Origin: a virus
Strand: one strand, 5' to 3'
Virus record (IMG/VR): IMGVR_UViG_3300049218_000200
Coordinates: 1 to 44,628 of that record
Length of the DNA: 44,628 nt
The notes under the pieces are model-generated. The model saw only the letters and a program-made list of their open reading frames with translations, did no database searches and was not told the origin of the DNA. The position numbers and the translations under genes were made by a program. Below are positions 1,116 through 31,633 of the stretch, piece after piece (within the stretch, counting starts at the first letter, position 1; the number at the start of each line of letters is the position of its first letter).

Positions 1116-4100
1116 CTATTGCGGGAACAAGAACTGCGCCAGATAGTGCTCCACTTCATTGGCGAGAGACATCATTCCCCAGTAGGTGCGATGGGAGCCG
1201 TCCTGCCCGATGAGGAGATCGGTGTTGGTGCCCGCTGTACCGACTGGCTTGCCGATGTTTGAGCTGCCTGATACCCCGAAGTAGCTGACGCCGTTGTGAA
1301 AGTTGAGCAGCTGCATGTACGGCCACTGGCCGTTGACGTAAGGCAATGAAGCCTGAGCAGCAGCGTAGAAGATCGCTTCAGAGGGCCATAAGGTCGTTAC
1401 CGCCGGTCCAGTGGTTTCTTCCGTTCCTTGCATCACTTGAACCGCTTGAGGGTACAGCGAGGCAATCGAACCGATGGCGTTTTGAACGATGGTTTGCAAA
1501 CCCATCTCCGCCGTGGGATTGCCGTCGTTCCCGGAGCACTGCCAGTAGAGGATGAAAGGCAGGCCCGGTCCAGCGTTCATCGTGCTTGACGCAACCGTCT
1601 GCGATACGGAGACGTTGTAGGTCCCGGTTCCTCCAGTGCCCGTTCCGAGGCTTGTAATTTGTGCCGGCACCATGCCGAATGCGTTGCCCGCGTTCGCCGC
1701 TGATGTGACTTGGCCCGAGGCGATATTTGCGAGCGCCGGGATGTTGACCCACTGCCCAACTGCGAGAGTGCAGGTCGCGTTCACAGCCGAGACCGTGACC
1801 ACATTACCGGCCTGCGAGCCTATAATCGGGCAGTAGGTCTCGACCGGAATGTTGGGAGCGAGTGAACCGTACCAAGGCCGGATCGAAACGGTTCCAGAGT
1901 TACCCGTCACCGAGATCGTCATCGGTCCGGTGAAGCTGGCGTTTGACCCGGTGCCCGAGATGATGTATCCGATGCTTGGGTATGGAGAGACCGTGAAGGT
2001 CGCCGAGCCGAAGGCAGTCAGCAATGCGGAGGCTATGTTGGCAGCTTGATTCCCATAAATCGAGACCGAGGCGGTTGAGATTCCATTTTGGGTGATAACC
2101 GCAGAGCCAGCAGCCTGTGCTTGTGATGTGTCAATAACCCAAGCGTTAGGGCTAGGCAGCACGCGCTGGATATAGTTCTGGCCGTTGTTCGTCGGAATTT
2201 GGTTGAACCCAGATGATGCTCCCGCTAAATGCCAGCACTGGATTCCCAAGTCGCGACAAACGTTCGAGATAAACCCCGAGGACACAAAGTCCGCAACACC
2301 AGTTGCCGCGCTCCCGAAGTTTGCATCCTGGGAGTCTGTGACCGCGAACATCTGCGTAACTGTCTCGGAAGGTGGTGCGGTCATGAAGCCATTCTGGCTG
2401 ATCGCCACAGACAGGAGCGGGTCCTCTGATTCGATCTTTATGTTGTGCCGGTCGGTAGTTGGGAATGTGAGCGTGAAGTACATGATTCCGGGACTGCTAG
2501 CAGCATTAATCTGTCCATTGGTCAGCCCCGCCCCTCCATAGTATGTCCGCCCCCCGGTGGCATAAGGCATGATGGCGTAGACGCTGGTGGCGTCAGGTGT
2601 CGTGGTCCACGTTGGGACGACGGCTGCGAGGGCTGTCGCCGTGGCTGCATGGGTGTCGGCAACCCCGCTGGCGTTGTTGCACGAGATCGATGCGAGTGTG
2701 ACGACCGAGCAGGTGAAGGTTCCGTTGTTTGCGCTGTTGTCGAAGCCAGCGATGGTCGCGGGAAAAGTGATCCCGGTATAGGTGGCCAGCGTGCCTCCGG
2801 TGACGGTGCAACTGTAGGTAGTGTTTCCGCCGCTGGCGTTGGCTGCCGCAGAGCAGGTGAGCTGTCCCAAGTATCCCAAGACTTTGGCCGTCTGCCCGCT
2901 GCCGGTCCCGGAGAGTATCGAGATGATTTCTCCGTTGTACTGTCCAGTGTTCGTTGACGCGCCAGAGGCAAGCACAAAGGTGGATGAGGTTCCTCCGCCC
3001 GGAGACGTGCCGCCATTGCTTGCCTGAAAAGCGTCTGCTACGTCTTGGTTATCAACCCAGATACGAACGGGATAACCAGTGTTGTAGAAGCGAACCTCCA
3101 CCTGAGATGCAGTGGGTTCCGTTTCGACAGTGCAGTACGTCCCGCCAGACACTGGATCGACCCAGGCCGTGTTGACGATTGGTGTACCGATACCGCTTAT
3201 ATTGAGCTGCAAAGGCTGGCAGCCGGGATAGTTGTAGTGCTCGTAATCGATGCCGAGCGAACTGCTATAGAACGGAAAGACCGTCGGCGTGGTTATGCCG
3301 GACGCATTGCTCAGCGTCACAGTCGGCGCAGCATTCGAGCCTTGGTTGATGGGCTGCTTCGGGCCAAGCTTGCGTTGTGCTGCCGAGAGAATGCGGAACG
3401 TCTGACCAGCGCCGATGTTCTGCGTGGCCGCCGTGCCGAGCCTGGAATTCACTGCCGCCTGCGCGGCCGGCGCGGCGCCAGATGCATCTGCGAACGCCTG
3501 CCAGTAAGCCGTGTTGGTGCCGGGAGTGACTGCGCAGGAGGAGCAGGCCTGCTGCGCCTGGTAGACGGTCGCCGCGCTTCCTGATCCGTAGGTGACGAGC
3601 TCGTACTGGGTGTAGTTGCCGCCGGCGGTGTAGGCGATCGGCGGGGCGATGCTGGCGCCGTTGGTCCCGTTGGTTCCGTTGGTCCCGTTTGCGCCGGCCG
3701 GGATGCCGAGCGTCAGGACGCCTGCGCTGAGGCTGGCGGTTGCGGATTGTCCCGCCGCGAGGGTATTGACTGAGACGGAAGTGATTCCGGCGCCGGGCGC
3801 TCCGGTTGCTCCGGTTGCGCCGGCAGGGATGCCGAAATTGAGCGTGTAGTTGGGCGAGGTGCCGGAGATCGACACCGTGGGCGTGGCACCGGCCGCGAGC
3901 GCGGTCGTAGTGCCGATGGTGAACGTGGGAGCCGAGCCGCTGGCTGCGGGAATGCCGAGCGCGAGGACACCGCCGTTGAGGCTGGCGGTGGGAGTGGCGC
4001 CGGCGGCGAGCGACGTAACGGTGACGCTCGTGATGCTGCTTCCGTTGGGCGACGGGATGACGGGCGTCTGCGCGTAAACTGCCGAGGAAGACAGGAGCGC

Positions 4101-4127
4101 GAGGCAGAGGATGAGGCGTTGCAGCAT
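1116..4127 (-). CDS. Large secreted tail-fibre-like protein with SGNH-hydrolase domain
   Basis: 1003 residues. Residues 1-19 form a clear Sec signal peptide ending VYA before QTP. Residues 30-160 carry three repeats of the type common in phage tail fibres (SLAAGATPTASL, ending GIPAG) and collagen-like GATGATGAPG and GTNGTNGTNG stretches. Residues 165-210 resemble a small carbohydrate-binding module, followed by the fibre motif GTAATQNIG (231-239). The C-terminal part has SGNH esterase signatures: Ser in TDS at about 599, Asn in GND at about 867, and DGSH at 976-979. About 265 residues, including a beta-rich insert, separate the first two blocks. I infer a receptor-binding or surface-glycan deacetylating fibre; the export signal is unexpected. 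Its ATG follows directly on the TAA of the preceding small gene (TAAATG), suggesting coupling. Confidence 0.75.
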   Translation of the reverse strand: MLQRLILCLALLSSSAVYAQTPVIPSPNGSSITSVTVTSLAAGATPTASLNGGVLALGIPAASGSAPTFTIGTTTALAAGATPTVSISGTSPNYTLNFGIPAGATGATGAPGAGITSVSVNTLAAGQSATASLSAGVLTLGIPAGANGTNGTNGTNGASIAPPIAYTAGGNYTQYELVTYGSGSAATVYQAQQACSSCAVTPGTNTAYWQAFADASGAAPAAQAAVNSRLGTAATQNIGAGQTFRILSAAQRKLGPKQPINQGSNAAPTVTLSNASGITTPTVFPFYSSSLGIDYEHYNYPGCQPLQLNISGIGTPIVNTAWVDPVSGGTYCTVETEPTASQVEVRFYNTGYPVRIWVDNQDVADAFQASNGGTSPGGGTSSTFVLASGASTNTGQYNGEIISILSGTGSGQTAKVLGYLGQLTCSAAANASGGNTTYSCTVTGGTLATYTGITFPATIAGFDNSANNGTFTCSVVTLASISCNNASGVADTHAATATALAAVVPTWTTTPDATSVYAIMPYATGGRTYYGGAGLTNGQINAASSPGIMYFTLTFPTTDRHNIKIESEDPLLSVAISQNGFMTAPPSETVTQMFAVTDSQDANFGSAATGVADFVSSGFISNVCRDLGIQCWHLAGASSGFNQIPTNNGQNYIQRVLPSPNAWVIDTSQAQAAGSAVITQNGISTASVSIYGNQAANIASALLTAFGSATFTVSPYPSIGYIISGTGSNASFTGPMTISVTGNSGTVSIRPWYGSLAPNIPVETYCPIIGSQAGNVVTVSAVNATCTLAVGQWVNIPALANIASGQVTSAANAGNAFGMVPAQITSLGTGTGGTGTYNVSVSQTVASSTMNAGPGLPFILYWQCSGNDGNPTAEMGLQTIVQNAIGSIASLYPQAVQVMQGTEETTGPAVTTLWPSEAIFYAAAQASLPYVNGQWPYMQLLNFHNGVSYFGVSGSSNIGKPVGTAGTNTDLLIGQDGSHRTYWGMMSLANEVEHYLAQFLFPQ

Positions 4128-4544
4128 TTATTGTCCCCTTGTGTAGTGCATGGTGACGGCGGTGGTGCCGTCTCCGGCGGTGTAGGTGAGGATGTAGAGG
4201 CGCGCGTAGAGGACGGGCTTGTCGACGATGTGGAACATGCTGGAGCTGGTGCAGGACTGGACGCCGCTGAGCGAGTACCAGTGGACCAGGTCGCTCGATC
4301 CATCGAAGGAAAACGTGCAGGCCGAGGGTGCGGTGCCGGTGACCGACCAGTCGATGGTGTGGTTGCCCGGCGCAATCGCGTTGTTGTAGTACGAGATGAT
4401 ATTGCCGAGTTGGCCCGTGGTGGTGATCGTGCTGACGTTGTAGCCGCCGCCGGGGCTCTGCGCGCGCACCGGGCGGCGGCTGGGCGCGAGCAGAGCGGCG
4501 AGGAGCAGGGCGGGGAGAAGCAGGCGATAGAGGCGGTGTCTCAT
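4128..4544 (-). CDS. Small secreted beta-rich protein between the two fibre genes
   Basis: 138 residues with a long hydrophobic signal peptide ending VRA before QSP (about residues 1-29). The rest is rich in Thr, Ser and Tyr, with two Cys that could form a disulfide (TAPSACTF and VQSCTSS), as expected outside the cytoplasm. AAGGAG precedes the ATG at good spacing. It sits between two large secreted fibre-like proteins and is translationally coupled to the downstream one. I recognise no family. It could be a fibre-associated subunit, a fibre chaperone, or a secreted accessory protein. Confidence 0.7.
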   Translation of the reverse strand: MRHRLYRLLLPALLLAALLAPSRRPVRAQSPGGGYNVSTITTTGQLGNIISYYNNAIAPGNHTIDWSVTGTAPSACTFSFDGSSDLVHWYSLSGVQSCTSSSMFHIVDKPVLYARLYILTYTAGDGTTAVTMHYTRGQ

Positions 4545-4575: not shown

Positions 4576-7395
4576 CTAGTTGACGGTTCGCCAGTAATCG
4601 CCGCCGGTTTGCACGCTTACCAAAGTCGACGTGAAGTTGGCGCAGGTGTTTTGCGCGACCGTGATCGAGGTGCTTCCCGAGAGGCCGTTGAAGGGGAAGT
4701 CGGAGGGAGCGTTGATGGTGAGCGTGTTCGATCCGCCCGAGGAGTTATTGCAGTAGCGCTTGGTCTGGCCGGTTTGATAGAGCGCGGACATCAGATTGAC
4801 GACGACGTTGCCGCCCACCGTGTCCACCGTCCTGCAGCCGTCGGCAGCCTGATCGGCGTAGGGCGAGGCGGCATTGGTGATGGTGGTGGCGTCGCAGTCG
4901 TCGTTGCTGGAGCCGACCGTGATTCGGTCGTACGCCTGGCTGTAGGAGGCTTCTTTGAAGACCTGCGCGGCCGCGGTCAGGTGAGTCCCGTCCGGGGCGT
5001 CGGCATAGTAGGTTGCGTTGACATAGCCGCCGTCCGGAAAGTGCGGGTCCGCGGCCGTGTCGGCGATTCCGTCGAAGTATCTGCGCCATTGCGTGCGAAC
5101 CGTCGTGTTGTAGATGGCGCGGAGCTGATCCTTCGAGTAGCCGCTCGGCGTGATCGTCACGCCGGTTTGCGTCGCAGTGGCGCTCTGGTTGATGGTGATG
5201 GTGCTCGCGCCCGGATTGAGGGCAACGATCTCGGAGTAGGCTGGGATTCCCGCGGCCGCGATCAACTGCCCTTCCGCGAGTCCGGTGAAGCTCGATACGT
5301 TGGTGAGCACCGTGGGATTGGTTGTGGAGGAAGTGTTTGCCGTGAACGTGGAAAGCCCGGTCTGGGTGCAGGGCGAAAGGTTGGCTCCCGAAAGGACCGT
5401 TTCGACGAAGATCTTGAAGCCATAGCTGTGAGCCAACTGTGCCCCGGCAACTGCGTTCTGCCAGACGGCGTTGGCAGTGGCGCTCAAGCTGCTGCCGCAT
5501 GTCCCGATCCCGGTGGCCATATCGTTGGTCCCCGCTTGCCAGAGGGCCACGTTCTGGCCAGTCTGAGGGATGCCGATCTGCCCCAGGCGAATGGGTAGAT
5601 TCGCGACGACGGACGCCCCTGTTATGCCGCCGATGCCCTGGTTGACGGGTGTAAAGGCCAGCTTCGTCGTGAGGTTGAGGATCGCGCACGAAGTGGACGG
5701 CGACACGAGATAGCACGCCATGATGGAGTCGCCGAGTCCAACCAAGGACGGCGTGGGGCCACGATACGGCGGAGGGTTCAGGACGATGCTCCGCGCCGGA
5801 GCCAAGCCCTGCATGTAGAGCGTGATCTGCTGTATCTGCGCCTGGGTGAGTTCGCCGGAAGCGGCGGCACCGAGGGCAATGGTGCCATAAAAATAGCTGG
5901 AGTTCAGGTACCCGCCAAGTTGGTAGTGGCCTCCCGCCGCAGTCTGAAGGCCAGAGCAATAGCCGATGGCGCCGCCGCTCGAACTGGTTGTGAGAACGCC
6001 GTCGATGTATGACTTGTCCTGGTCGGTGGACGTGTTACTGCCGCAGGTGAAGGCGAGGACGTGCCAGCCTACGGCGCGGTCCGAGCTGAAGGTATACACG
6101 GTGTTCGTGGTGTTCTGCATCCCGGGAGACATGAAGTAGGATGCGTTTTGAGTCTGGCTCTCAAAGAGCATGCCACCCGCGGCCGAGGTGCCGAGGAGTG
6201 TCTGGGCGGAGTTACTCGCATAGTTGACGGTACCGTTGTAGGTCGATGTCGGCATCGGGTACTGCTGTGCCAGAAAGACGAAGGTGCGATCGCCATTGAG
6301 CGCTGCTGGCACATCGCACCCGGAGTTGGCGACGCCGCCCGCTGCCGGCACTTCAAAGAACAGCCCTTGAGGCGTCAATGTAGGCGTCGCGAATCCAGAG
6401 GTTCCGGCTGATCCGCAGAGGATGGCGTTGCCGTTGCCTGTCTGGTCTGCCACGGTGTTGCTCGCCATCGTCGAGAAGTCCCACAGCGCGTTGAGCCCAA
6501 CGCTCGAAATCGAGCCGGTGGGTTGCGGCGTGTAGCCGAGTGCCCCGATGATCCCGCCAGGGGTAGCAAGCGCGTTGAGGCTGGTCCGGACGGAGGCAGC
6601 CGCGCCGGCAGCGTCCCACAGCGGAGTCCAGTAGGCGGTGTTTGTAGGCAGATTACCCACAGTACTCGCGGTCGCGATGTAGCCGATGTTGTTATAGAGG
6701 ACGACGTTGCCGGCCGTGTAAGCGGTGGTGTTGCTGTAGGCGGAAAAGGTTGCTGCGCTGCCGGAGCCGGAACTCGGAAAGGGAACATAGACGCCGTTCT
6801 GGCAGAACTCCGGAACCGCGGGAGTGGCGGACGTGGAAGACGGCAGATAGATAGATGTCGTGCAGGAGCTGGGGGCCGAAGACTGCTGGGTGATTGCGGA
6901 CGAGGGTATGACCGGAACATTGGCGGCCGGTGCGTAAGCATCGAGGGCCCAGGCGGCTCCGGTGATGTTCGGAACCGCCTGCAGGAAGATGGCCTGGCCG
7001 ACGGGCGATCCGGTCGAGGTCGTTTGCTGGATCGTGAGGTTGTAGTAGATGGGGCCGCTGAGGTTGGTGTGAGAGGCGTCGGGCACGGTTAGCGGCGTGG
7101 CGAATGCTCCGGCAACTACGTTCTGGCAACCAACGGGCGCACCCTTCAGGATGAATCCCCAGGTCGGAGCGGACACGTTGATCGGGTTGCCCTGGATATC
7201 CGCGGCATAGGCGCAGACCCTGGCGTATGCGACCGGCGCGCTGCCTGTGCCGGAGGGATTTGCCGATTGCATGTCCGCGAGCGTGATGGCGGTGGTGTAG
7301 TTCGTCTGTGCGAAGAGTGGAGCGGCAGCGAAGAGAAGGAGCGCGGCGGCAGCGCGGAGGGCAAAACTCAGGCGGGTGGACGAGACGGATCGCAT
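4576..7395 (-). CDS. Large secreted tail-fibre-like protein with LamG-like and SGNH-hydrolase domains
   Basis: 939 residues. The signal peptide ends at PLFA before QTN (about residue 29). Residues 219-260 resemble a CBM5/12-like module (AYTAGNVVLYNNIGYIA, then W). The tail-fibre motif GALGYTP is at 284-290. Residues 300-525 look like a LamG/concanavalin-type beta sandwich. An SGNH esterase follows: GDS (Ser about 557), block II Gly near 587, GTND (Asn about 624), and DGTH (Asp 802, His 805). Roughly 75 residues of a beta-type module are inserted between blocks III and V. A Cys-containing tail of about 110 residues ends the protein. It is the first gene of the fibre unit and lies 34 bases behind a copy of the proposed late element. 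It may be a virion adhesin or de-acetylase, or an exported lysogen protein. Confidence 0.78.
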   Translation of the reverse strand: MRSVSSTRLSFALRAAAALLLFAAAPLFAQTNYTTAITLADMQSANPSGTGSAPVAYARVCAYAADIQGNPINVSAPTWGFILKGAPVGCQNVVAGAFATPLTVPDASHTNLSGPIYYNLTIQQTTSTGSPVGQAIFLQAVPNITGAAWALDAYAPAANVPVIPSSAITQQSSAPSSCTTSIYLPSSTSATPAVPEFCQNGVYVPFPSSGSGSAATFSAYSNTTAYTAGNVVLYNNIGYIATASTVGNLPTNTAYWTPLWDAAGAAASVRTSLNALATPGGIIGALGYTPQPTGSISSVGLNALWDFSTMASNTVADQTGNGNAILCGSAGTSGFATPTLTPQGLFFEVPAAGGVANSGCDVPAALNGDRTFVFLAQQYPMPTSTYNGTVNYASNSAQTLLGTSAAGGMLFESQTQNASYFMSPGMQNTTNTVYTFSSDRAVGWHVLAFTCGSNTSTDQDKSYIDGVLTTSSSGGAIGYCSGLQTAAGGHYQLGGYLNSSYFYGTIALGAAASGELTQAQIQQITLYMQGLAPARSIVLNPPPYRGPTPSLVGLGDSIMACYLVSPSTSCAILNLTTKLAFTPVNQGIGGITGASVVANLPIRLGQIGIPQTGQNVALWQAGTNDMATGIGTCGSSLSATANAVWQNAVAGAQLAHSYGFKIFVETVLSGANLSPCTQTGLSTFTANTSSTTNPTVLTNVSSFTGLAEGQLIAAAGIPAYSEIVALNPGASTITINQSATATQTGVTITPSGYSKDQLRAIYNTTVRTQWRRYFDGIADTAADPHFPDGGYVNATYYADAPDGTHLTAAAQVFKEASYSQAYDRITVGSSNDDCDATTITNAASPYADQAADGCRTVDTVGGNVVVNLMSALYQTGQTKRYCNNSSGGSNTLTINAPSDFPFNGLSGSTSITVAQNTCANFTSTLVSVQTGGDYWRTVN

Positions 7396-7429
7396 GATGC
7401 AGAGTCACCCGCGCGGAGGCCTCAGCGGG

Positions 7430-7463
7430 TGCGGGGAGTGCGATGCGTGCGAGTGCGTCGATT
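7430..7463 (-). promoter_or_regulatory. Proposed late-control element, copy 3 (fibre operon)
   Basis: Read on the minus strand, AATCGACGCACTCGCA (7463-7448), four bases, then TCGCACTCCCCGCA (7443-7430). The first part matches 13 of 16 bases of the copy at 20224, and the GCA ends are exactly 18 bp apart, as in both other copies. It begins in the TAA stop of the upstream gene, exactly as the copy at 28644 does. It lies 34 bases before the fibre start codon. Confidence 0.5.
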
Positions 7464-7939
7464 TAGCCGGCGAGCTGCTTATACATCTGCTCGAAGAGCG
7501 CAGCGACCGACTTCTTCGAAATGCGCCAGAAGCCGTCCGGAAGCAGCTTGTAGGAGGTGATAACGCCCTCCTCGCAGAGGATCCGAACCTTCTGTTGGCT
7601 GTAGCGAAGGAGCTCTGCCACTTCGGGCACCGTCATGGTGTCGTGGGCAAGCGAGAACGGCAGAATCTCATCGTCACGATAGCGGCCGAAGATGCCGTCG
7701 CGCTTCGGCCGCGTGTCTTCGATGGCATACCGTACCCGCAAGCGATCCGTGTATTCGATGAGCGACTTGTAGCTGATGAAGTGGTTGCCGGTGGGATGGC
7801 GGCGCGTACCCTTGATCTCTTTAGCCTCGCAGAGCGCGACGACCATCAGTCGGGTGACGCCGAGGATCTTGCAGACGCGCGTCACCGATACCTCATCCTT
7901 CTCGGCGAACGGCAGGGCGAATTGGAGGTCATGTCGCAT
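7463..7939 (-). CDS. Protein with two excisionase/MerR-like helix-turn-helix domains (candidate late activator)
   Basis: 158 residues. Two helix-turn-helix units of the excisionase type are visible: VSVTRVCKILGVTRLMVVAL in the first 45 residues and MTVPEVAELLRYSQQKVRIL near residue 100. Each is followed by a short wing ending in (Y/W)-x-I-S-(Y/K)-K-S. I chose the ATG at 7939, 14 bases after the upstream stop with AAGGAG further upstream; an in-frame extension to 8632 lacks coding character. It is the last gene of the early operon, where a Mu-like phage could place its middle/late activator (Mor/C in Mu). It shares no visible similarity with Mor/C, so that role is inferred from position and domain type. 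Confidence 0.72.
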   Translation of the reverse strand: MRHDLQFALPFAEKDEVSVTRVCKILGVTRLMVVALCEAKEIKGTRRHPTGNHFISYKSLIEYTDRLRVRYAIEDTRPKRDGIFGRYRDDEILPFSLAHDTMTVPEVAELLRYSQQKVRILCEEGVITSYKLLPDGFWRISKKSVAALFEQMYKQLAG

Positions 7940-13146: not shown

Positions 13147-13445
13147 TGCGGCACCGCCGATCCGGGGTGCACGTTGTGCTGCGCAACGTTCATTCCCAGT
13201 TCCCGCGCCAAGGTAATGGCATCGCGCTCCAACCGATCGCCGTCGCCTTCGCAGATTCCCAGCAGACCCTGGAGAAGAATGTGTATGTTGGCGGCTGGGT
13301 CCGTTTTGTCCTTCGCCGACTTCTGAATGCCCTGCAGGAACTTCGCGTTGCAGAGCAAGAGGGTGATCAGGCGGCAATCGCGCTTGTCGTCTTCCGTGAC
13401 CTCGCGCTCCTCGGGTACGACCATTTCGGCGCTGTTGAGCTTCAT
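13143..13445 (-). CDS. Hypothetical early protein
   Basis: 100 residues starting MKLNSAEMVVPEE; the ATG overlaps the upstream TGA as TGATG. The N-terminal half, REVTEDDKRDCRLITLLLCN, and GICEGDGDRLERDAITLARE suggest two helices around a central loop. No family recognised. Cytoplasmic. Confidence 0.55.
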   Translation of the reverse strand: MKLNSAEMVVPEEREVTEDDKRDCRLITLLLCNAKFLQGIQKSAKDKTDPAANIHILLQGLLGICEGDGDRLERDAITLARELGMNVAQHNVHPGSAVPQ

Positions 13446-14017
13446 CAGGCGGCCTTCTTTCCAGCCTTGGCGGCTTTGGCGGCTAGTTCGGCTAACGCCT
13501 CTTCAGCCTTGCGGGTGATCTCTTCCTGCGTCTCGACGGTGAGCGACGGAGAGCTGGTCTTCGCGGAGAAGCAGCGCAGGTAGGCGAGCCGGATGGAGTC
13601 GGCGGCGCTCTTCGGCCACTTGTGCGTGGTGATGAAGCGGTGCGCATCCTTCACCAGCGAGAACTCGCTGCGCTCGGTGAAGAGGTTGCCGAAGAACTTG
13701 CCGAGGCGGGCCTCGCGCATCAGATCGCGGAGATTGGCGGTCGCGTCGTCGTCGATCTCGACCGTGGTGCTGGTGGTTGCGGTGGCGACGTGCGCCGACG
13801 AGGTGAGACGCTTGGACTTGGGGGCGTTATCCGGGACGGTGCCGAAGGCGAGCAGCGCGGCGAGCACCTTGTCCTTGAACGCGTCCTCTTCCTTCTTCGC
13901 GCCCTCGCGAATGCCTTTCCAGTAGAGGTACTTGCCACAGTCGTTATCGAACGACTTCACGTCGAGCGAGGGCGTAGGTACGTCGGGGGCTTGGTTGAGT
14001 TCGATCAGCGGGTTCAT
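13445..14017 (-). CDS. Hypothetical early protein with Ala/Lys-rich helical tail
   Basis: 190 residues from ATG 14017 behind AAGGAG at nine bases. Residues 25-60 are basic and aromatic (FDNDCGKYLYWKGIREG), the middle contains a Thr-rich linker, and the last 40 residues form an Ala/Lys/Glu helix (EEITRKAEEALAELAAKAAKA). Its position after the MuB-like gene matches the semi-essential early region of Mu, which is variable between phages. No function assigned. Confidence 0.6.
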   Translation of the reverse strand: MNPLIELNQAPDVPTPSLDVKSFDNDCGKYLYWKGIREGAKKEEDAFKDKVLAALLAFGTVPDNAPKSKRLTSSAHVATATTSTTVEIDDDATANLRDLMREARLGKFFGNLFTERSEFSLVKDAHRFITTHKWPKSAADSIRLAYLRCFSAKTSSPSLTVETQEEITRKAEEALAELAAKAAKAGKKAA

Positions 14018-14286
14018 CGTGCGGAGTCTCCTTCGGTGGCGGGTTGGGGTTGGGGGATGTGAGCCTGAGCGGGCTCGAAGGTGCCGTTGTGCAGGTAGCG
14101 CTCGATCAGGGCGAGTGCCGAGCCCTGGCCGCAGCAAAGGACTGACTCTGGAAAGAAATCGCCGAGCTGCGGCTCAAACGGCGGTGAAACCTTCAGCACA
14201 CCGACAGAGCTGATCGTCAGCTCGCGCCAGTGTGCGTCCACCGCCTGAGCCTGTCCGCAACCGGAGCAATAAGCAGTCGTCGCCAT
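14014..14286 (-). CDS. Hypothetical protein with N-terminal Cys pair
   Basis: 90 residues; YCSGCGQ near the N-terminus and CCGQG in the middle could bind zinc. The C-terminus is Gln/Pro-rich. Both ends are coupled to neighbours by 1- and 4-base overlaps (TGATG upstream, ATGA downstream). Confidence 0.5.
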   Translation of the reverse strand: MATTAYCSGCGQAQAVDAHWRELTISSVGVLKVSPPFEPQLGDFFPESVLCCGQGSALALIERYLHNGTFEPAQAHIPQPQPATEGDSAR

Positions 14287-14504
14287 CAGCGCACCAGCCG
14301 ATCAAAGACGCCGCTGTACCACGCCCACGCAACATCGCAGGCGAGGGCTGCGCAGACCAGCACGAACAAGGTTTTGAAGGCGAAGTCGATGACTCGGACG
14401 ATGCGCTTCTGGCGGACGATCATGACGTAGGCGACCTCGCTATCGCCGTCGGAGTCGATGGACACGTAGACGTCGTGCTGGCGGATATTCTGTGAGGCTT
14501 TCAT
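14286..14504 (-). CDS. Small membrane protein
   Basis: 72 residues. A polar N-terminus is followed by one membrane span (about 40-62, DFAFKTLFVLVCAALACDVAWAW). It is likely an inner-membrane protein with the N-terminus in the cytoplasm because of the basic residues preceding the span (RQKRIVRV). It sits directly after the MuB-like gene. Function unknown. Confidence 0.6.
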   Translation of the reverse strand: MKASQNIRQHDVYVSIDSDGDSEVAYVMIVRQKRIVRVIDFAFKTLFVLVCAALACDVAWAWYSGVFDRLVR

Positions 14505-14516
14505 GCGGCGCTTCTC

Positions 14517-15572
14517 CTAATTGATTTGGGCTGCGGGAGTAACGGGTCCCGGATGCGACTTGGCGACGCCCATCTTCACGTCGTCGAGCGCGTTGCAGAG
14601 CGTGCGGATGTTGATGTACTGGGCCTTCTTCTCGCCGGGCTTCACGGCGGTGTAGGCGTCCGTCACGGTGGCGCCGCTGATGAGGCTGGCGATGACGCGC
14701 TCGCGCTTCGCGCCCAGGTTGCGGCTGTCGAGGATGGCGCCGACTTCGCGCTCCACAATTCCCCTGGCCTCTTCGAGTCCGCAGCCCGGCAGCCGCACCT
14801 TGCGCACGATGCGGCTGTTCCACTGCTCCATGCGCGCGCTGCTGCGTTCGAACATGAGGAACAGATCGTGCGACCCGGCGATCAGCAGGCTGAAGCCGAG
14901 CCGATCCAGCAGCTCGCGGATGACCTCGAAGCATTCGAGCGAGAGGTGTTGCGCCTCGTCCAGCGTGAGGATGACGCGACGGCCGGCGTGGTCGTGGTGA
15001 AGGTTATTCAGGATGCGATCGATGTCGCCCGAGGTGGACGAACCGCAGGCCTGGGCGATTCGCTTCATCAGGCTTTGCGGCTTGATGCCCTGGCGCGCGT
15101 AGACGTAGATCGCGCGCGCACCCTCCGCGCCCCTGGACATCTCGCGGGCGTTCAACTCGCAGACCAGGTGTTCGAGCACGAAGGTCTTCTGCGAGCCCGG
15201 CGGCGCGTACACCATGAAGGCTCGCGGGCGCGGCAGCAGCGATTCGAAGGTATCGCGCAGCATGCGCACGTTGGCGGTCTCGAACAGCTCGCCGTGGATG
15301 GAGACCTGTGCCGTCACCGGGTGCGAGGCGATGTAGGCGCGGGCCTCGCGCATGATGTGCTCGGCGTTGCCGCTGATGACGTGGTAGTTGTCCGCGAGGA
15401 ACATCCGCATGGTGCTGGGGCTGTAGTTGATGCGCCGGGCGAAGTCGTCGCGGTGCAGCCCGGCGCGGGCCATGTAATCGTTGATCTCCGCGATGCAGGC
15501 GGTGCGGTCTGTGGCGTTGGCGGCGAGCTGCTGTCGCCGTTCCGCGGCCGTGTAGTTATTGGTCGGTGTCAT
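14517..15572 (-). CDS. MuB-like AAA ATPase, target-DNA activator of transposition
   Basis: 351 residues. As in Mu gpB, an N-terminal helix-turn-helix region (about 30-75; LHRDDFARRINYSPSTMRMF) precedes the ATPase. The P-loop at 123-130 reads APPGSQKT instead of GxxGxGKT: the lysine and threonine are kept, but the first Gly is Ala and the Gly before Lys is Gln. Walker B is VILTLDEAQ (about 200-208). In Mu, gpB coats target DNA, delivers it to the transpososome and gives immunity. The gene's ATG overlaps the transposase stop (ATGA). The unusual P-loop could slow or alter ATP use. Confidence 0.85.
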   Translation of the reverse strand: MTPTNNYTAAERRQQLAANATDRTACIAEINDYMARAGLHRDDFARRINYSPSTMRMFLADNYHVISGNAEHIMREARAYIASHPVTAQVSIHGELFETANVRMLRDTFESLLPRPRAFMVYAPPGSQKTFVLEHLVCELNAREMSRGAEGARAIYVYARQGIKPQSLMKRIAQACGSSTSGDIDRILNNLHHDHAGRRVILTLDEAQHLSLECFEVIRELLDRLGFSLLIAGSHDLFLMFERSSARMEQWNSRIVRKVRLPGCGLEEARGIVEREVGAILDSRNLGAKRERVIASLISGATVTDAYTAVKPGEKKAQYINIRTLCNALDDVKMGVAKSHPGPVTPAAQIN

Positions 15573-17782
15573 GCTAAGAGTTCTCCTAAGAATTCAGCGG
15601 CGATGTCGTGACTGCTTTTGGGTGCGCGCGCGTCCTCGCTGGGGCGCGTGTTCTGGCGGATGAGGCGCTGCGAAATCAGCGATTCATCCACCGGATTCGT
15701 TTGGGCGGCGAGCTCCGCCAGGTGTTGCAGGTCGGTCTTGTGGCCGGCCTCGGCAACGGATTTGTGGATCCGCTTCACCGTGCCGGCGGTCGCGGAGAGC
15801 AGGCGGCTGCGCGTCTGCAGCGTCGCGGCGATGAGCGCGGCAGTCTCAGGCGCTTGCGCCGTCAACGAGCCAGCCGGGTGCTCGGTCTGCCGCTCGCGCT
15901 CCAGCCGGTAGCGGTTGCCCTGGTCGTCGATCGCCACGGCCTCGACCGGGTCCAGCGGATCGAAGGCCAGCGTCACGCTGCGGTCGTTGAGCTGGTAGAA
16001 GCGGCCGTAGGTTTCGTGGTCCGCGACCGCGGGAGCGTAGCGCTCGCCGTCGATGGTGACGGCGGTCTTGCGCACCAGCGCTTTGCGGCGCTCGTAAAGC
16101 AGCGTGGCGAGGATCTCCGGGTTGGCGGTGCGGCGCTGCGCGGGCGGGTACAGCTCGTCGAAGACGGCGTTGGGGGTGCGTCCGTCCATGCCTTTGCCGG
16201 TGTGCGCGTGCTGCGCGTTGTAGACCTGCTCCACCCAGGTCTGCGCCAAGCGGATGAACTGGCTGGCGGGAACCAGCTTGGACGCCGCGCCCAGGCCGAA
16301 CTTCAGCAGGCGCCGATGCTCCGCGCCGGCGAGGATGGTCTGGTCCGGCCGTGTGTACGCGTTGCCGGTGGTGTAATGCGGCAACATGGCGTCGAAGTCG
16401 CCGTGCATGGTGCCGAATCCGCGCTCGATGTTCTTCGACTGCGCCGAGTAGGGGCGGCAGAACTGGACCGGGATACCAAGCTGCTGGAGCGCGCCCGTCG
16501 CTTCGAGGAAGCGGTAGGCCTCCTGCTTCTGCTCCGGCGTCAAGCGCAGGCGCTGCGTGCCCTTCGCGGCCTTCTTGAAGTCCTTGCCGTTGTCGCAGTA
16601 GAAGAGCTCCGGCGGACCGTAGCGGGCGACGGCGTTGCGCAGCGCGGCGGCGATCGAGCGGGAGTCGCCCTCGGCAGCCCAGCAGTAGCCGACGAACTTG
16701 CGCGAGCGCATGTCCATGATCGCGGTGAAGCGGATCCTCATCGGCGCGTCGATCGCCACGCCGGCGAAGCAGTCGTTGCGCACCTCCACGTCGTGGATCA
16801 TGTGGTCCGACACCCAGACGCCGTTGGCCGGGATGTCGGTGTATTTGCGCGTGACGTGTGGCGCGCACTTGTCGTGCCATGCCTTCTGGCCGTGGCGGGC
16901 GAGCAGCGCGGCGGGCTTCGGCAACGCCTTCAGGTAGCGCGTGACGGTCTTCAGGTCGGGCAACTCGGCGTCCGGGATGCGCAGCAGCGCCTGGTCGCGG
17001 TAGAGGGCGTTCTGCGCGCGGGTAAAGCTGGCGCTTGGCTTCAGCCACTCGCTTTCGACCAGGCGCGCGGCGGCGGGGTAACGAGTGAAGAAGTTCGAGG
17101 TTCCGCGATCCTTGCGCGGCTTGCGTCCGAGCGCGGCATCGCCGCCCTGGCGCCACAGCTTGACCCAGTTCCACAGCGTGCGCGGGCTCACCGGTTTGCC
17201 TTCCACCTTCACGGTCTCGGCCAGGTAGCGCGCGAGCAGGTCTTTGGTGGTGACAGCGGTGTCATCCTGCAGCCGCAGGGCGGAGTAGACCATGCGCCGG
17301 CCCGGCAGCTCGTATTCGAGCAGGGGCAGGATGGCGGCGTGGCGGGACTCCGCGCGCTTGCGATCGCGTGGCGAAAGTTCCGCCAGCAGAGCGGGGCCAC
17401 CCCCGTGGCCCGCACGCTCTGCGGTGAGCTGCTCCTGTGCGGCGAACTGGCCCTGGGAAAACAAAGGAGCAGCAGCTTGAGCCTTGCGAAGCGCCTTGCC
17501 ATCCAGCACCGCAACCGGCTTCGGCCGCGCGTGGTAAGCGTCCAGCACCTTGTCACGGAGATCCGCGGGTAGCGAGGCCACCAGATAGCGACGGATCGGT
17601 TTGCCATTGCGCCCGTTGCCGCTGGGCGTCACGGCGATCACACCCGGCTGCTGCGTCTTGCGCTCGAACGTCTTGGCGGAGATCCCGGTCAGATGCAGGA
17701 TGTCGGCGCGGGTCAGCTGCAGGCCGCACGCCGAATGCTCCGGCGCAGGCGTTGGGAACCAGGAGAGCGCGGCGGCCGTCAT
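15569..17782 (-). CDS. MuA-like DDE transposase
   Basis: 737 residues. The N-terminal winged-helix region (about 20-70; LTRADILHLTGISAKTFERK) suits MuA-type binding to the genome ends or enhancer. A second helix-turn-helix is seen at 199-225 (SPRTLWNWVKLWRQGG). The integrase-core catalytic triad is visible: Asp326 (VSDH), Asp397 (YCDNGKDF) and Glu453 (SKNIERGF). A beta-barrel domain follows at about 590-660. It catalyses strand transfer for insertion and replicative transposition. The stop is coupled to the MuB-like gene, and the start is coupled to a regulator upstream. Confidence 0.92.
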   Translation of the reverse strand: MTAAALSWFPTPAPEHSACGLQLTRADILHLTGISAKTFERKTQQPGVIAVTPSGNGRNGKPIRRYLVASLPADLRDKVLDAYHARPKPVAVLDGKALRKAQAAAPLFSQGQFAAQEQLTAERAGHGGGPALLAELSPRDRKRAESRHAAILPLLEYELPGRRMVYSALRLQDDTAVTTKDLLARYLAETVKVEGKPVSPRTLWNWVKLWRQGGDAALGRKPRKDRGTSNFFTRYPAAARLVESEWLKPSASFTRAQNALYRDQALLRIPDAELPDLKTVTRYLKALPKPAALLARHGQKAWHDKCAPHVTRKYTDIPANGVWVSDHMIHDVEVRNDCFAGVAIDAPMRIRFTAIMDMRSRKFVGYCWAAEGDSRSIAAALRNAVARYGPPELFYCDNGKDFKKAAKGTQRLRLTPEQKQEAYRFLEATGALQQLGIPVQFCRPYSAQSKNIERGFGTMHGDFDAMLPHYTTGNAYTRPDQTILAGAEHRRLLKFGLGAASKLVPASQFIRLAQTWVEQVYNAQHAHTGKGMDGRTPNAVFDELYPPAQRRTANPEILATLLYERRKALVRKTAVTIDGERYAPAVADHETYGRFYQLNDRSVTLAFDPLDPVEAVAIDDQGNRYRLERERQTEHPAGSLTAQAPETAALIAATLQTRSRLLSATAGTVKRIHKSVAEAGHKTDLQHLAELAAQTNPVDESLISQRLIRQNTRPSEDARAPKSSHDIAAEFLGELLA

Positions 17783-18599: not shown

Positions 18600-18775
18600 T
18601 TGTCCTCCCCGCATGGAAGTTGAGCCGAGGCCGGTGTTTTGCCGAAGCGGGCCTCCGCTTCTTCGTTCGCCATGGCGTCCAGCAGGGACTTGGCGATCTC
18701 GGCCTCGCGGGTGAACACGGCGGCATGGTAGAGGGCGTTGGCGTATTGCAATTGGAGCCGAGTGCGTTCGTTCAT
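18596..18775 (-). CDS. Small early protein (59 residues)
   Basis: ATG 18775 to TGA 18596. MNERTRLQLQYANALYHAAV opens a helical protein that ends PCGEDK. Both ends overlap neighbours as ATGA, and codon use fits the operon. No family recognised. Confidence 0.6.
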   Translation of the reverse strand: MNERTRLQLQYANALYHAAVFTREAEIAKSLLDAMANEEAEARFGKTPASAQLPCGEDK

Positions 18776-20223: not shown

Positions 20224-20257
20224 AATCTACTAACTCGCAATTCTCTACTTACCCGCA
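20224..20257 (+). promoter_or_regulatory. Proposed late-control element, copy 1 (lysis operon)
   Basis: AATCTACTAACTCGCA (20224-20239), four bases, then TCTACTTACCCGCA (20244-20257): two 14-base direct repeats (12 of 14 identical) with an 18-bp period. It lies just behind the terminator and 209 bases before the endolysin. A weaker third unit, CTACTAACTTTCGG, is at 20325-20338. Near-identical elements precede the head genes (28644) and the fibre genes (7463, minus strand). Confidence 0.6.
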
Positions 20258-20466
20258 GACTGAGTGTGGGGTGTGCGCCCTAGTCTCCAATCACGGTCTC
20301 ACGGCCGGCTAGCCGTTCTTGCTGCTACTAACTTTCGGAGAGGAAAGGAGGTCGCGGAGAATCGCCAGAGCTCATACCAGGACCGCCTGCTATCGCGCCG
20401 GGGCCAACCGCGCGCTAGCAGCCTGGATGATCCAGCCCAGACGTGACTCCGCAGGAGGAGACGCGG

Positions 20467-21009
20467 ATGGCGACGCCCGAACAGCTTGCGAGACTACTAG
20501 CCGTGGTCCCTGCCGCGCAGGCCTCCGCCCGCGTGTGGCGGGTTCCCGCGTCGGTGACGCTGGCGCAGTGGTGCACCGAAAGCACCTGGGGCACGTCGCA
20601 GCTCAGCGTCAAATGCAAGAACTTCTTCGGCATCAAGGCTTCGCACCTGGCCGCGCCGAACACGTATGAGGAATTTCCAACGGCTGAGTACGAAAACGGC
20701 CAGCGCGTGATCGTCGAGGCACTGTTCGCGAAGTTCACGACGGAGACCGGCTGCTTCGACGCGCATGCCAGCCTGCTGGCGAATTCCGCGCGCTACAAAC
20801 CCGCGATGCTCGCCGTCGCGCACCCGGACGTGTTTGCCGTCGACCTGCAGCGCTGCGGCTACAGCACGAGCCCAACCTACGGCGCGGACCTGATGACGCT
20901 GATGCGCGAGCACAACCTGTACCAGTATGACCTCGCGCCAGCTCCTGAACCTGAACCCGAAGTCCCGGCCCCGGCTGTGCCGGCATCCCCGAACGCGCAG
21001 GTGCAATGA
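20467..21009 (+). CDS. Glucosaminidase-type endolysin (GH73-like)
   Basis: 180 residues. Residues 20-145 follow the N-acetylglucosaminidase fold: ASVTLAQWCTESTWGTSQLS with the likely catalytic Glu38, then CKNFFGIKA, EYENGQRVIVEALFAKF and YKPAML. The C-terminus is a Pro/Glu linker (PEPEPEVPAPAVPA). It cuts the glycan strand of peptidoglycan during lysis. No signal peptide is present, so release depends on a holin. AGGAGG precedes the ATG at 20467. It begins the rightward late region. Confidence 0.8.
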   Translation: MATPEQLARLLAVVPAAQASARVWRVPASVTLAQWCTESTWGTSQLSVKCKNFFGIKASHLAAPNTYEEFPTAEYENGQRVIVEALFAKFTTETGCFDAHASLLANSARYKPAMLAVAHPDVFAVDLQRCGYSTSPTYGADLMTLMREHNLYQYDLAPAPEPEPEVPAPAVPASPNAQVQ

Positions 21010-27745: not shown

Positions 27746-28644
27746 TGGATAGACGCGCCGAGCTCTACGCCGCCCAGGTCCAGCAGCTCATCAATGGATC
27801 CGCTCAGCTTACGCCCCAGAGCGAAGCTGCGATCACCGAGCTGCTTGCGAAGGCGGGCGCGGAGATACTCGGCAGGCTCGCACAGATGAACTCCGGAAGC
27901 TACAGCTCGCTGCAGCTCAACCAGATGCGCGCTGAAATCGATAAAGCGATGCAGCGCTTCAGCCAGGACGCGACAAAGGCGGTGAACGCGCTGCAGGAGA
28001 CGGCGGCGAAGGTGGCAACGCGCGATGTGAGCTCGACGATCGGCGCGGCGCTGGGCAAGCCGGTATCGCTGGGCGCGATCAATCAGCAGACGGTGCGCAT
28101 CGCCCAGGGCTACACGGCCGACCTCATCACCGGGCTTTCGGCCGACGCGTCGGCGAAGATCAAGGGCACCATCCAGCGTGCGTTTCTCGGAGGTCAGGGA
28201 CTGCCGGAGATTATCGACCAGGTGGGCCGCGCGCTCGAAGGCGGAAAGTTCAGCGGGATCTTCACCGAGGTGGGCGATCGCGCGATGCGCGTCGCGATGA
28301 ACGAGGTGCTCCGCGTCCACTCCATTAGCGGCCAAGCCCGCATGTACGAGCTCGCGAAACAGAACCCCGGTGTGAAGAAGATGTGGAAGCACATCCCGGC
28401 CGCGCGTGTGCCGCGCCTTAGCCACATCCTGGCCGATGGCCAGATCCGTGACGTCGATGACGCGTTCTTCGTCGCCGGCGAGGACCTGATGTTTCCGCGC
28501 GACCCAAGCGGAAGCCCGGAGAACACCATCTTCTGCCACTGCGTTTCGGTTCCATACGTCGACGATTCGGCGCTGACGGCGACCCAGTCCGATCGCGATC
28601 TGCTGGCCTCCGTTGGATTGAAAGTGGAGCGCTCCGACGCCTAA
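27745..28644 (+). CDS. Minor head protein, Mu gpF/SPP1 gp7-like
   Basis: 299 residues. The core RVAMNEVLRVHSISGQARMYELAKQNPGV and the end KMWKHIPAARVPRLSHILADGQ with a metal-type PENTIFCHCVSVPY are typical of the phage Mu F-like head morphogenesis domain. It is thought to help attach DNA or portal during early assembly. TGATG overlap with the portal sets the start (GTG 27742 is the alternative). Its TAA stop begins the proposed late-control element copy 2. Confidence 0.8.
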   Translation: MDRRAELYAAQVQQLINGSAQLTPQSEAAITELLAKAGAEILGRLAQMNSGSYSSLQLNQMRAEIDKAMQRFSQDATKAVNALQETAAKVATRDVSSTIGAALGKPVSLGAINQQTVRIAQGYTADLITGLSADASAKIKGTIQRAFLGGQGLPEIIDQVGRALEGGKFSGIFTEVGDRAMRVAMNEVLRVHSISGQARMYELAKQNPGVKKMWKHIPAARVPRLSHILADGQIRDVDDAFFVAGEDLMFPRDPSGSPENTIFCHCVSVPYVDDSALTATQSDRDLLASVGLKVERSDA

Positions 28645-28677
28645 ATCTACCAACTCGCAATGATGTACTCAGCCGCA
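28644..28677 (+). promoter_or_regulatory. Proposed late-control element, copy 2 (head genes)
   Basis: AATCTACCAACTCGCA (28644-28659), four bases, then TGTACTCAGCCGCA (28664-28677); 15 of 16 and 11 of 14 bases match copy 1 with the same 18-bp period. It starts within the TAA of the minor head gene. Degenerate units follow at 28697-28710 and 28719-28732 before the next ATG (28758). Confidence 0.6.
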
Positions 28678-28757
28678 GTCTTCGAGGCATCCCAGCGACT
28701 TACTTTCGAAGCTAGCAATCTACCTACTCGACCCAAGCACTCAACGAGGAAAGACTC

Positions 28758-29231
28758 ATGGCTGATCTCAAGATTCCCCAGGCTCCGGCACACCTGCCGA
28801 AGCATGTTGCCGACAAGTGGCAGGCTACCTACTCCGACACGCTGAAGCGGACTGCAAGGGAGCAGGGCGACAAGCCTGACGAGAAGGCTCAGCATCTGGC
28901 CGCGCGCCGCGCCGCGCATGCCGCCGTCAAGGTCGATCCGCCGGAGACGTTTGAGCAGGCGAATAGCCTCATCGACGAGTTCAAGCGCAAGGGGCCGGAC
29001 GCCTACAAGATCATCGGCCACGGCACGCGGAAGGTTCGCGGCGAAGATCACATCGTCGTCGTCACCAACGCCGGCCAGAAGCTGCTTTTCCCGGTGCCCG
29101 CCTCGGAGATCGCTTCCGCACCGAAGCCCGAGAAGAAGGGCGACGGCAAGAGCAGTGAAGGCAAAGGCAAGGACGGCAAAGCTGCGGACGGCAAGAGCAA
29201 TGATCCCGACAGCAAAGAGCCCACGGCCTAA
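28758..29231 (+). CDS. ChaB-like phage head-region protein
   Basis: 157 residues. LPKHVADKWQATYSDTLKRT, then KAQHLAARRAAHAAV, has the helical layout of ChaB-like domains in phage proteins. A beta unit follows (KIIGHGTRKVRGEDHIVVVTNAGQ), then a Lys/Gly/Asp-rich disordered tail. It has AACGAGGAAAG upstream and lies just ahead of the protease-capsid gene. A role as head-assembly accessory is inferred. Confidence 0.55.
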   Translation: MADLKIPQAPAHLPKHVADKWQATYSDTLKRTAREQGDKPDEKAQHLAARRAAHAAVKVDPPETFEQANSLIDEFKRKGPDAYKIIGHGTRKVRGEDHIVVVTNAGQKLLFPVPASEIASAPKPEKKGDGKSSEGKGKDGKAADGKSNDPDSKEPTA

Positions 29232-29236
29232 CCCTG

Positions 29237-31633
29237 ATGACTCTCGGCATGCATCAACTCGCATGGTTCGCGGTCGCTGAAGCGGCGGCCGCGGACATGT
29301 CGTTTTCCGATCGGTCGTCGCTGCTTGACGCCGCGCTGCGCGAGCAGTTCGGCAACGACACCGACGGCTGCCAGCGCTTCTGGCTGCAGGACATCTTCCC
29401 GTCCTATGTGATTGCGCGCAGCCGCGACGATGGCTCGCTCTACCAGATCAGCTACACGCTCTCCGGCGGCGCCGCAAAGATGGGTGATGCGCAGGAGGTC
29501 GAGACAGCTTACGTTCCGGTAGCTGAATCGGCGTGCTTCGTGATGGAGGCGGATGCGACGGACGGGGACGACTGCGTTTATCCCGTGGTGGTGATGAAAG
29601 CCGGGTGGGCCGGCGGCACGGTGAATGGTGCGGCGCTCCCGCACTATTACACGCCGGAGCTCGTCGCCCAGGTAGCGGAAGCGGTGAACTCCGCGAAGTT
29701 TGGCCGGCAGCATCCGGCGAATGGCTTCGGCGAGGACGATCCCGATCGCATTGCCGGCTGGTACACCGACGGCGTCTTCGTCGGGCAAGAAGCGCGGGCC
29801 AAGCTGAATCTGCTGAAGAGCGAGACCGGCCTTCGTGCGAAGCTGGCCGCGGCGCGCGAAGCGAAGAAGCTGGATATGTTCGGGCTCTCGATTCTGGCGA
29901 GCATCGGCTTCGAAGCTTCTGTGGTCGAGGGTAAGAAGTGTCTGAAGGGCGTCAAGCTCGGCAAACTATATAGCGTGGACCAGGTCTCCGAAGCCGGAGC
30001 CGGTGGACGCTTTCTCCAGGAGATGCGTGTCGCGGCCTCGGCCGACGCCAGCGCGGAGATCTCGGCGGCGCAGTCGGCCGCAATCAAACATGGTTCGCCT
30101 GTCCACCCGGCCAGGCAAAGCAGCGGAGCCAAAGGCCGCGAGGGTGACACGATGAACAAGCTGTTGATGCTGAAGGTGATTGAGGCTCTGCGGGTGCGCG
30201 ATAACGCGCTTGCCACCAAGCTGCTCACCGAACTGAACGCCGCCGGCGATGATGCCACGAAGGTGGAGCTCGTCTTTACGAAAGTTTCGGAGGCTGCCGC
30301 CACGCTCGCCGTTCCGGATACCTCCGCGATTGAGGCGATCAACGCCGCGCTGGCGGAGACGAAGAAGCTCCAGTTCGTCAACGTGATGGAGGCCGCGCTC
30401 ACCGAGTCGAAGCTGCCCGAGCCTGCGCGCAAGCTGGTTCGCCGTCGTTTTGCCACGGCGCCCGGCACCAAGGAAGAGCTCGACGCGGAGATTGTCGCCG
30501 TTCGCGAGTCGTTCGCAGCCGCCAGCAGCACAGGCCGCGTGGCGACCGTCGGCACCGTCACCCTCGAAACCGAAGACAAGATGCAGATCGCCATGGACCG
30601 GATGCTCGGCTGCAAGGTCGATGACAAGTCTGTCCCTGGCTTCCGTGGCGTGCGTGAGGCGTACATGGTCGTCACCGGCGATCGCGACTTCTCGGCGTTC
30701 CGCAACGGCGGCGGCTTCGTGATGAAGCGGGTTGCTGAAGCGATCGTCTCCGCGGACTTTCCGAACCTGCTGCTCAACTCCATGACCAAGAAGCTCGACC
30801 AGGAATACGCCGAGCTGGGCATGGAAGGACTCGACATGCTGTACGAGAAGGCCGATGTCGATAACTACCTGCTGCAGGATCGCGTGCGCGACGGCTACTT
30901 CAATGAGCTTTCGCCGGTCGCTGAAGGCGCGGTTTACACCGAGATCGGCTACCCGACCGACGAACGGATGAACTACCAGGTGTCGAACTTCGGCAACCTG
31001 CTCACCATCACCGAGCAGACCATCCGCAACGACAATCTCGGGGCGATCGCACGGTTTCCCGGCAAGCTGGCTCGCGCCGGACGCAAGACGTTGAAATCGT
31101 TCATCACCAACTTCTTCACCGCCAACCCGAACTATCAGCCTGACGGTGTGAGTTGGTTCAACGCGGCGCACGGCAACCTGGGCGCAAACGCGTTTGGGTA
31201 CGACGCGCTCACGCTGGCCGAGATCGCGCTCTTTCAGCAGACCGAGCCCAACTCCGGCGAGCAGCTTGGCTTCCCGCTCACCTGGATCATGATCCCGATC
31301 CAGTTGAAGCGGCAGGCGATCGCCATCAACCAGACGGATACGGCCGGCAGCAACGGCTTCTACCACGCATTCGGCCCGAACAACGAGCGCATCATCGTGA
31401 ACGAGAAGATGACCGACGACAACGATTGGTGCTATGGCACGGATTCCAACCTCGCGCCTTTCCTCGAAATCGGCTTCCTCGACGGGCTGGAGCAGCCACA
31501 GATTTTCCTGGCGAACAACCCCGTGGTGGGCGTGCAGTTCACCAACGATGAGCTCCAGTACAAGGTCAAGCATGTCTTCGGCGGCAACATGAAGGATTAC
31601 CGCAGCGTCGGCAAAAACGTCGTCGCCGGCTAA
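29237..31633 (+). CDS. Fused prohead protease and major capsid protein
   Basis: 798 residues. The N-terminal 270 look like a Mu gpI-type prohead protease: YPVVVMKAGWAGG, PHYYTPELVAQVAEAVNSAK and AGWYTDGVFVGQEARAKLN. A helical, scaffold-like part follows (about 300-430) and then the capsid, about 440-798, with MQIAMDRMLG, QQTEPNSGEQLGFPLTWIM and a C-terminal beta region. Cleavage near residue 300-440 would release the mature coat. An internal ATG at about 30151 (MNKLLMLKV) might give a separate capsid precursor. The fused layout differs from Mu, where the genes are separate. Confidence 0.82.
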   Translation: MTLGMHQLAWFAVAEAAAADMSFSDRSSLLDAALREQFGNDTDGCQRFWLQDIFPSYVIARSRDDGSLYQISYTLSGGAAKMGDAQEVETAYVPVAESACFVMEADATDGDDCVYPVVVMKAGWAGGTVNGAALPHYYTPELVAQVAEAVNSAKFGRQHPANGFGEDDPDRIAGWYTDGVFVGQEARAKLNLLKSETGLRAKLAAAREAKKLDMFGLSILASIGFEASVVEGKKCLKGVKLGKLYSVDQVSEAGAGGRFLQEMRVAASADASAEISAAQSAAIKHGSPVHPARQSSGAKGREGDTMNKLLMLKVIEALRVRDNALATKLLTELNAAGDDATKVELVFTKVSEAAATLAVPDTSAIEAINAALAETKKLQFVNVMEAALTESKLPEPARKLVRRRFATAPGTKEELDAEIVAVRESFAAASSTGRVATVGTVTLETEDKMQIAMDRMLGCKVDDKSVPGFRGVREAYMVVTGDRDFSAFRNGGGFVMKRVAEAIVSADFPNLLLNSMTKKLDQEYAELGMEGLDMLYEKADVDNYLLQDRVRDGYFNELSPVAEGAVYTEIGYPTDERMNYQVSNFGNLLTITEQTIRNDNLGAIARFPGKLARAGRKTLKSFITNFFTANPNYQPDGVSWFNAAHGNLGANAFGYDALTLAEIALFQQTEPNSGEQLGFPLTWIMIPIQLKRQAIAINQTDTAGSNGFYHAFGPNNERIIVNEKMTDDNDWCYGTDSNLAPFLEIGFLDGLEQPQIFLANNPVVGVQFTNDELQYKVKHVFGGNMKDYRSVGKNVVAG

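Follow-up and report, generated by a model that had tools for sequence, protein, structure and literature searches.

Tandem 34-bp elements ahead of three gene units of a Mu-like phage as probable sites of a two-domain winged-HTH late-gene activator

The window considered here, that is, the whole stretch of DNA that was analysed, comprises the 44,628 bases of one virus record and represents a transposable phage resembling Mu (Table 1). Three copies of a 34-bp element lie in it: one ahead of the endolysin gene, one between the MuF-like gene and the head genes, and one between a gene for an HTH protein and the large minus-strand gene of a unit called "fibre". The pattern AATCNACNNACTCGCA-N13-CCGCA matches the window exactly at these three places and has 0 matches in 100 dinucleotide shuffles, and a longer form of the pattern, scanned with up to three mismatches, still returns only the same three sites in the window, whilst the reversed pattern, used as a control for the window scan, gives none. 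The first 16-mer alone, with three mismatches, yields 16 matches as compared with 11.7 expected, which is not significant, so that the exactness of the match and the second half of the element matter. In two of the copies the first base is the last A of the TAA of the preceding gene (28642-28644 for the MuF-like gene and 7465-7463 for the HTH gene), and the copies, distributed over both strands, are oriented toward the genes downstream of them. The original prediction had described the three copies, their orientation and the start of two of them inside an upstream TAA; it is confirmed in all these respects.

Table 1. Features of the window discussed in the text
Feature	Position	Strand	Remarks
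First fibre-unit gene, 939 aa	4576..7395	-	Signal peptide, SGNH-hydrolase-like motifs; N-terminal relatives in L035, L038, L040
-10-like hexamer GACTCT, putative fibre promoter	7401..7406	-	57 bp from element start; ATG 5 nt later
34-bp tandem element, putative fibre-unit promoter	7430..7463	-	Exact pattern match; aligned with relatives, same place
Candidate activator, 158 aa, two HTH_17 winged-helix domains	7463..7939	-	Last gene of early operon; ends at fibre promoter
MuB-like transposition gene	14517-15572	-	
MuA-like transposition gene	15569-17782	-	
Repressor	18551-19747		
34-bp tandem element, putative lysis-unit promoter	20224..20257	+	Exact pattern match; four 9-bp sub-sites, order A-B-A-B
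-10-like hexamer TAGTCT, putative lysis promoter	20281..20286	+	Without -35
Endolysin, first recognised lysis-unit gene	20443..21009	+	PHROG endolysin, E 1.7e-31
Terminase	24480-26150		
MuF-like gene	27742-28644		
34-bp tandem element, putative head-unit promoter	28644..28677	+	Exact pattern match; orthologous element in L009 at 14153
-10-like hexamer TACTTT, putative head promoter	28701..28706	+	Without -35
Head unit start	28758..31633	+	Small protein 28758-29231; protease/major head protein 29237-31633 (PHROG head maturation protease/major head protein)

A two-part structure with an 18-bp period had also been ascribed to all three copies. This description applies to the lysis and head copies, which carry the strong 18-bp repeat, and not to the fibre copy, whose second half is weak except for CCGCA. 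The lysis copy is composed of the sub-sites CTAC, CGCA, CTAC and CGCA in steps of about 9 bp, and it is the top-scoring 18-bp-periodic site with a TAnnnT hexamer in the window, tied with one other. The element scan gave no match at the window ends, nor in the interval that separates the transposase operon from the repressor, and readings of the element as a repressor operator or as a feature of the genome ends were dropped on these grounds. An additional half-element (AATCTACCTACTCGAC, 28717-28732) follows closely on the -10 hexamer of the head promoter, inside what is predicted to be the 5' leader of that unit, and a related sequence is present in L009.

Each copy is followed by a -10-like hexamer lying 57 bp from the start of the copy, a feature that had escaped the original prediction. 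When a -35 box was sought at a spacing of 16-18 nt, the window promoters matched TTGACA at only 0 to 2 of 6 positions, and a consensus scan of the lysis region returned no sigma-70 promoter. From this it follows that the end of the element lies immediately 5' of the -35 position. The same 57 bp separate element start and hexamer in the relative G006 (TACTTT, TACTCT and CAAGAT) and in the group of G007, G008 and G030 (TACTCT, TAAGGT and CAAACT); the spacing differs between sites in G023 and G010, and no set of three sites was made out in G011, G024, G026 and G036. This fixed distance speaks for the suggested late promoter class in which an activator is bound side by side. The surroundings of the lysis promoter display further features: a terminator-like stem ahead of the element (about 20189-20216), which is our own reading and falls below the scan threshold; the sequence GAGGAAAGGAGGTCGCGGAGAATCGCCAGAGC at 20340-20371, between promoter and endolysin gene, strongly conserved in the otherwise diverged L010, L033, L017, L019, L026, L029, L089 and L090; and a GC-rich hairpin, of the sequence GCGCGGCGAAGCCGCGC or a similar one, directly 5' of the -10 in the lysis promoters of L017, L089 and L090 (about 4840, 5180 and 5300). 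An Rfam search of the window gave no family match.

Of the units that had been named after fibre, lysis and head functions, the one called "fibre" owes its name to a guess from context, its products bearing signal peptides and one of them SGNH-hydrolase-like motifs. As judged by eye, all three products of this minus-strand unit (4576-7395, 4128-4544 and 1116-4127) start with Sec-type signal peptides, and the export of a tail-like protein would be puzzling. The SGNH-hydrolase-like motifs of the first product read GDS, GTND and DGTH; a similar N-terminal domain in L136-L138 and L172 begins without a signal peptide. The hexamer [TCG]AnnnT stands exactly 6 nt ahead of the ATG in 18 of the 22 fibre genes following an HTH gene, as compared with 3.5% of control ORFs, a fraction slightly favoured by the fact that a few of the 22 start codons were picked by a 5-7-nt rule; in the window the gap is one of 5 nt. 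With a hexamer at about 6 nt from the ATG, the fibre transcript would start at or beside this codon, and the fibre mRNA thus looks leaderless.

The HTH protein encoded next to the fibre unit contains HTH_17 (PF12728) in two stretches (E 4.2e-14, 53 bits against a cut-off of 27), and its AlphaFold2 model, with a mean pLDDT of 85.5, displays two winged-HTH units. The best PDB matches per domain obtained with Foldseek are Pukovnik Xis (4j2n) and BldC (6amk/6ama), the chains of the latter with a TM score of 0.74-0.84 by target length and E of about 0.06-0.1; since the top matches combine a probability of 1.00 with E values of 0.03-0.1, they are to be taken as matches at the level of the fold only. 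The HTH proteins of the relatives comprise either two domains or one, the one-domain versions being 82-103 aa long. In eight out of nine cases the two domains within one chain are similar to each other (z 4-13), and the domain tree can be explained by one duplication, with the one-domain proteins together in a single clade. The gene order GemA-like gene, HTH gene and fibre gene is repeated in relatives, with a GemA assignment that is weak (18 bits, below cut-off). Proteins of the Mor/C family (PF08765) were found in none of 12 records at E 0.1, and viral contigs searched with the sequence of the HTH protein itself yielded no close relatives. The HTH gene is also present in many contigs (L132-L177) that do not match this terminase family over its full length, and the activator therefore seems to be exchanged among phages with different head modules. 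Judged from sequence, this protein is the best-supported candidate for binding the three elements, as had originally been guessed.

Relatives of the phage were gathered by terminase searches (31 contigs, then more) and later by HTH alignments. Genome contigs searched with one terminase gave none, and with the terminase alignment only distant matches of 28-42% identity, so no cultured host was identified in these searches; the exact element had no match among viral contigs. Many relatives carry an element in the equivalent gaps, but with a lineage-specific sequence: TTTCCGCGCGGAAGAGTGTTTCCGCGCG in L010, L011 and L033, with small changes in L036, cores of the CCGCATC type at intervals of 18 bp in L005 and L040, and the AATCGAC/AATTGT type in L009 and L035. 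When anchored on the -10 hexamer, elements of one phage have 21.6 of 34 positions in common and elements of different phages 13.1 of 34, a result reached by 0 of 5000 label permutations, and across phages the similarity of the elements correlates with that of the HTH proteins (Mantel rho 0.36, p 0.0055). A genome-wide search for pairs that required a -10 hexamer ranked the elements first in some phages only, and restriction to syntenic gaps did better. After the MuF gene, several relatives leave no room for a head promoter, and hold-out two-domain genomes searched with their own fibre element showed no clear second site. One relative, L029, carries about 3.6 kb extra (13257-16913) between its portal and MuF-like genes in comparison with the others.

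The number of domains in the HTH protein is matched by the period of the element. In phages with two-domain proteins, the autocorrelation of the elements peaks at lag 18 (z 7.4, with z 1.1 at lag 9), and in phages with one-domain proteins at lag 9 (z 10.0, with a harmonic at 18 of z 5.6), a group that includes G014, a fragment without an HTH gene placed there because of its similar element. As the promoters of this first test were partly picked by eye, two stricter tests were made. With the fibre ATG as the only anchor, lag 18 reaches z 3.2 in eight two-domain phages and lag 9 reaches z 5.0 in three one-domain phages. In the second, a hold-out set of new contigs fetched by HTH alignments after the hypothesis had been formed and anchored on the hexamer before the ATG, lag 9 gives z 5.7 in the one-domain phages (n=5), and the two-domain phages (n=7) give z 3.4 at lag 18 and z -0.1 at lag 9. 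A one-sided rank test on lag 9 returns p 0.001 for all fibre promoters and p 0.025 for the new phages alone. The one-domain proteins form one clade, and the correspondence of domain number and period is accordingly close to a single evolutionary contrast rather than to many independent events.

Blind scans recover part of these sites. In scans for 9-bp arrays with a -10 hexamer, the two highest ranks in G034 and in G035 go to the lysis and head promoters, and the highest rank in G016, G028 and G050 goes to the fibre promoter; the promoters are not at the top in G010, G011, G014, G047, G056, G060 and G062. In scans for an 18-bp period an element has the best score, alone or in a tie, only in G000, G006 and G008; this period is clear in G000, G006 and the G008 group, is reduced to a 6-7-bp core in G002, and is not clear in G004 and G023. 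No consistent dyad symmetry was detected in the elements, the best centre among the 32 tried having z 2.1-2.5, as compared with z 7-10 for the direct repeats. Taken as sequence patterns, these periods suggest one 9-bp direct-repeat unit per winged-HTH domain.

We consider it likely, with good confidence, that a late-gene activator encoded by the phage, namely the two-domain winged-HTH protein, binds at the three elements. Each Xis/BldC-type domain would sit on one 9-bp unit, so that one molecule would cover 18 bp and two molecules, arranged head to tail, the element of approximately 34-36 bp. The 3' edge of the bound complex would then lie at about -36, just upstream of the absent -35 box, from where it could bring the RNA polymerase of the host to the TAnnnT hexamer at -10. 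Early transcription running through the last gene of the early operon would lead to production of the activator, which would in turn open the lysis, head and fibre units on both strands, the predicted start of the fibre mRNA being its own ATG or the adjacent base. Activation is favoured because of the geometry, the position of the gene, which is that of Mor in Mu, and the lack of a -35 box, and the original reading of the sites as late promoters served by an activator also agrees with the fact that relatives have element versions of their own in the three syntenic positions and with a period that follows the number of HTH domains. What is added to that prediction is the fixed position of the -10 hexamer, the assignment of 9 bp to each domain and the family of the protein.

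Alternatively, the elements may be late promoters read by another protein, either a host regulator or a different early phage protein, with the HTH protein serving excision, control of replication or the like. Several early ORFs have no assigned function, and HTH_17/Xis-type proteins often act in recombination (PMC11963761); nevertheless, the repeat period tracks the number of HTH domains, hold-out phages included, the similarity of the elements tracks that of the HTH proteins, and a host factor would have no need for a different element in each phage, all of which makes this explanation unlikely. It is very unlikely that the HTH protein binds the elements in order to repress the late promoters until a later signal. 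P2 Cox is generally known to repress in its own phage. BldC, in turn, is mostly a repressor in Streptomyces (PMC5859096), and activation is for this reason not guaranteed; however, with at most two of six matches to TTGACA the window promoters are expected to be weak unaided, the site has its end immediately 5' of the -35 position, as is typical for activators, and Mor and C of Mu, in the equivalent place, activate (PMC4461284).

Transposable phages are generally known to contain internal enhancers and repeated transposase sites, and the elements could in principle be recombination, transposition-enhancer or packaging sites instead of promoters. This is highly improbable, as they precede gene blocks in the orientation of transcription and at a fixed distance from a -10-like hexamer, and are missing from the scanned window ends and the interval between transposase operon and repressor. 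Finally, chance or the recent duplication of a short sequence, conceivable for only three copies in one genome, is of negligible probability in view of the empty shuffles and of the recurrence of this geometry at these three places in other phages, with unrelated sequences.

In a broader sense, and with somewhat less confidence than for the activator itself, we favour the view that there is a class of transposable phages in which BldC/Xis-type proteins replace the Mor/C switch of Mu, in which the operator period equals 9 bp times the number of fused winged-HTH domains, and in which activator and three late operators change together, resulting in a late-promoter code private to each lineage and a leaderless fibre mRNA. 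If true, this would add a further solution for late control in Mu-like phages beside Mor and C, together with a testable rule, one 9-bp unit per domain, for which natural one- and two-domain versions are available for comparison. The private operator sets, each matched to its activator, would form a naturally occurring series for studying how proteins of the BldC/Xis type recognise DNA, and late promoters in metagenomic phages would become predictable from sequence alone. No description of such a late switch was found in the open-licence papers searched, so that its novelty is not proven; the original statement that there is no named counterpart was partly right, in that the function has an analogue in Mu C/Mor (PMC4461284, PMC4390567) and the structure a counterpart in proteins of the BldC/Xis type bound to direct repeats of 9 bp (PMC5859096).

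Among known systems, TraN of plasmid pIP501 likewise combines two winged-HTH units in one chain with a 34-bp site (PMC10877727), and its structure 4pm3 is among the fold matches; it differs in being a plasmid repressor and in matching the fold poorly over both domains (TM about 0.3-0.4). Recombination directionality factors of the Xis/Cox/RdfS type, which oligomerise on DNA, provide the closest solved structures per domain (Pukovnik Xis 4j2n, P2 4lhf and RdfS 8dgl), and RdfS also activates a promoter (PMC11963761). In contrast to these, the phage studied here has MuA/MuB-like transposition, and its sites are found at promoters, with none at the window ends.

With Streptomyces BldC, which is MerR-like and belongs to HTH_17, the protein shares domain family and predicted fold, and the one-domain phages share the 9-bp unit, each BldC protomer covering a 9-bp direct repeat in a head-to-tail arrangement (PMC5859096). 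On the other hand, the protein is phage-encoded and predicted to activate late genes rather than to regulate development, and has two fused domains with an 18-bp period, a defined length of the two-molecule site and a fixed -10. A single small winged-HTH domain, strictly characteristic of BldC with its 68 residues, is not what the two-domain window protein has; its place is in the HTH_17 winged-helix group, where its architecture sets it apart from BldC.

The closest functional parallel is Mu itself. The HTH gene follows a GemA-like gene, as does mor in the Mu genome. In both cases a transposable phage has an activator, in the window a putative one, from the early/middle region and several late units with an activator site (likewise putative in the window), a -10 hexamer and no good -35 box; in Mu these are lys, I, P and mom, each with the site upstream of the -10 and a poor -35 (PMC4461284, PMC4390567). 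The protein differs from Mor and C (PF08765) in its Xis/BldC-type winged HTH, and the sites differ in their 9- or 18-bp direct repeats, the activator site of Mu being a dyad of 5-bp inverted repeats (PMC4390567). The likeness to C is thus one of function, the protein working like C, and not of membership in the Mor/C family: most likely, it is a late-gene activator that stands in the place of Mor and C in Mu and yet is unrelated to them.
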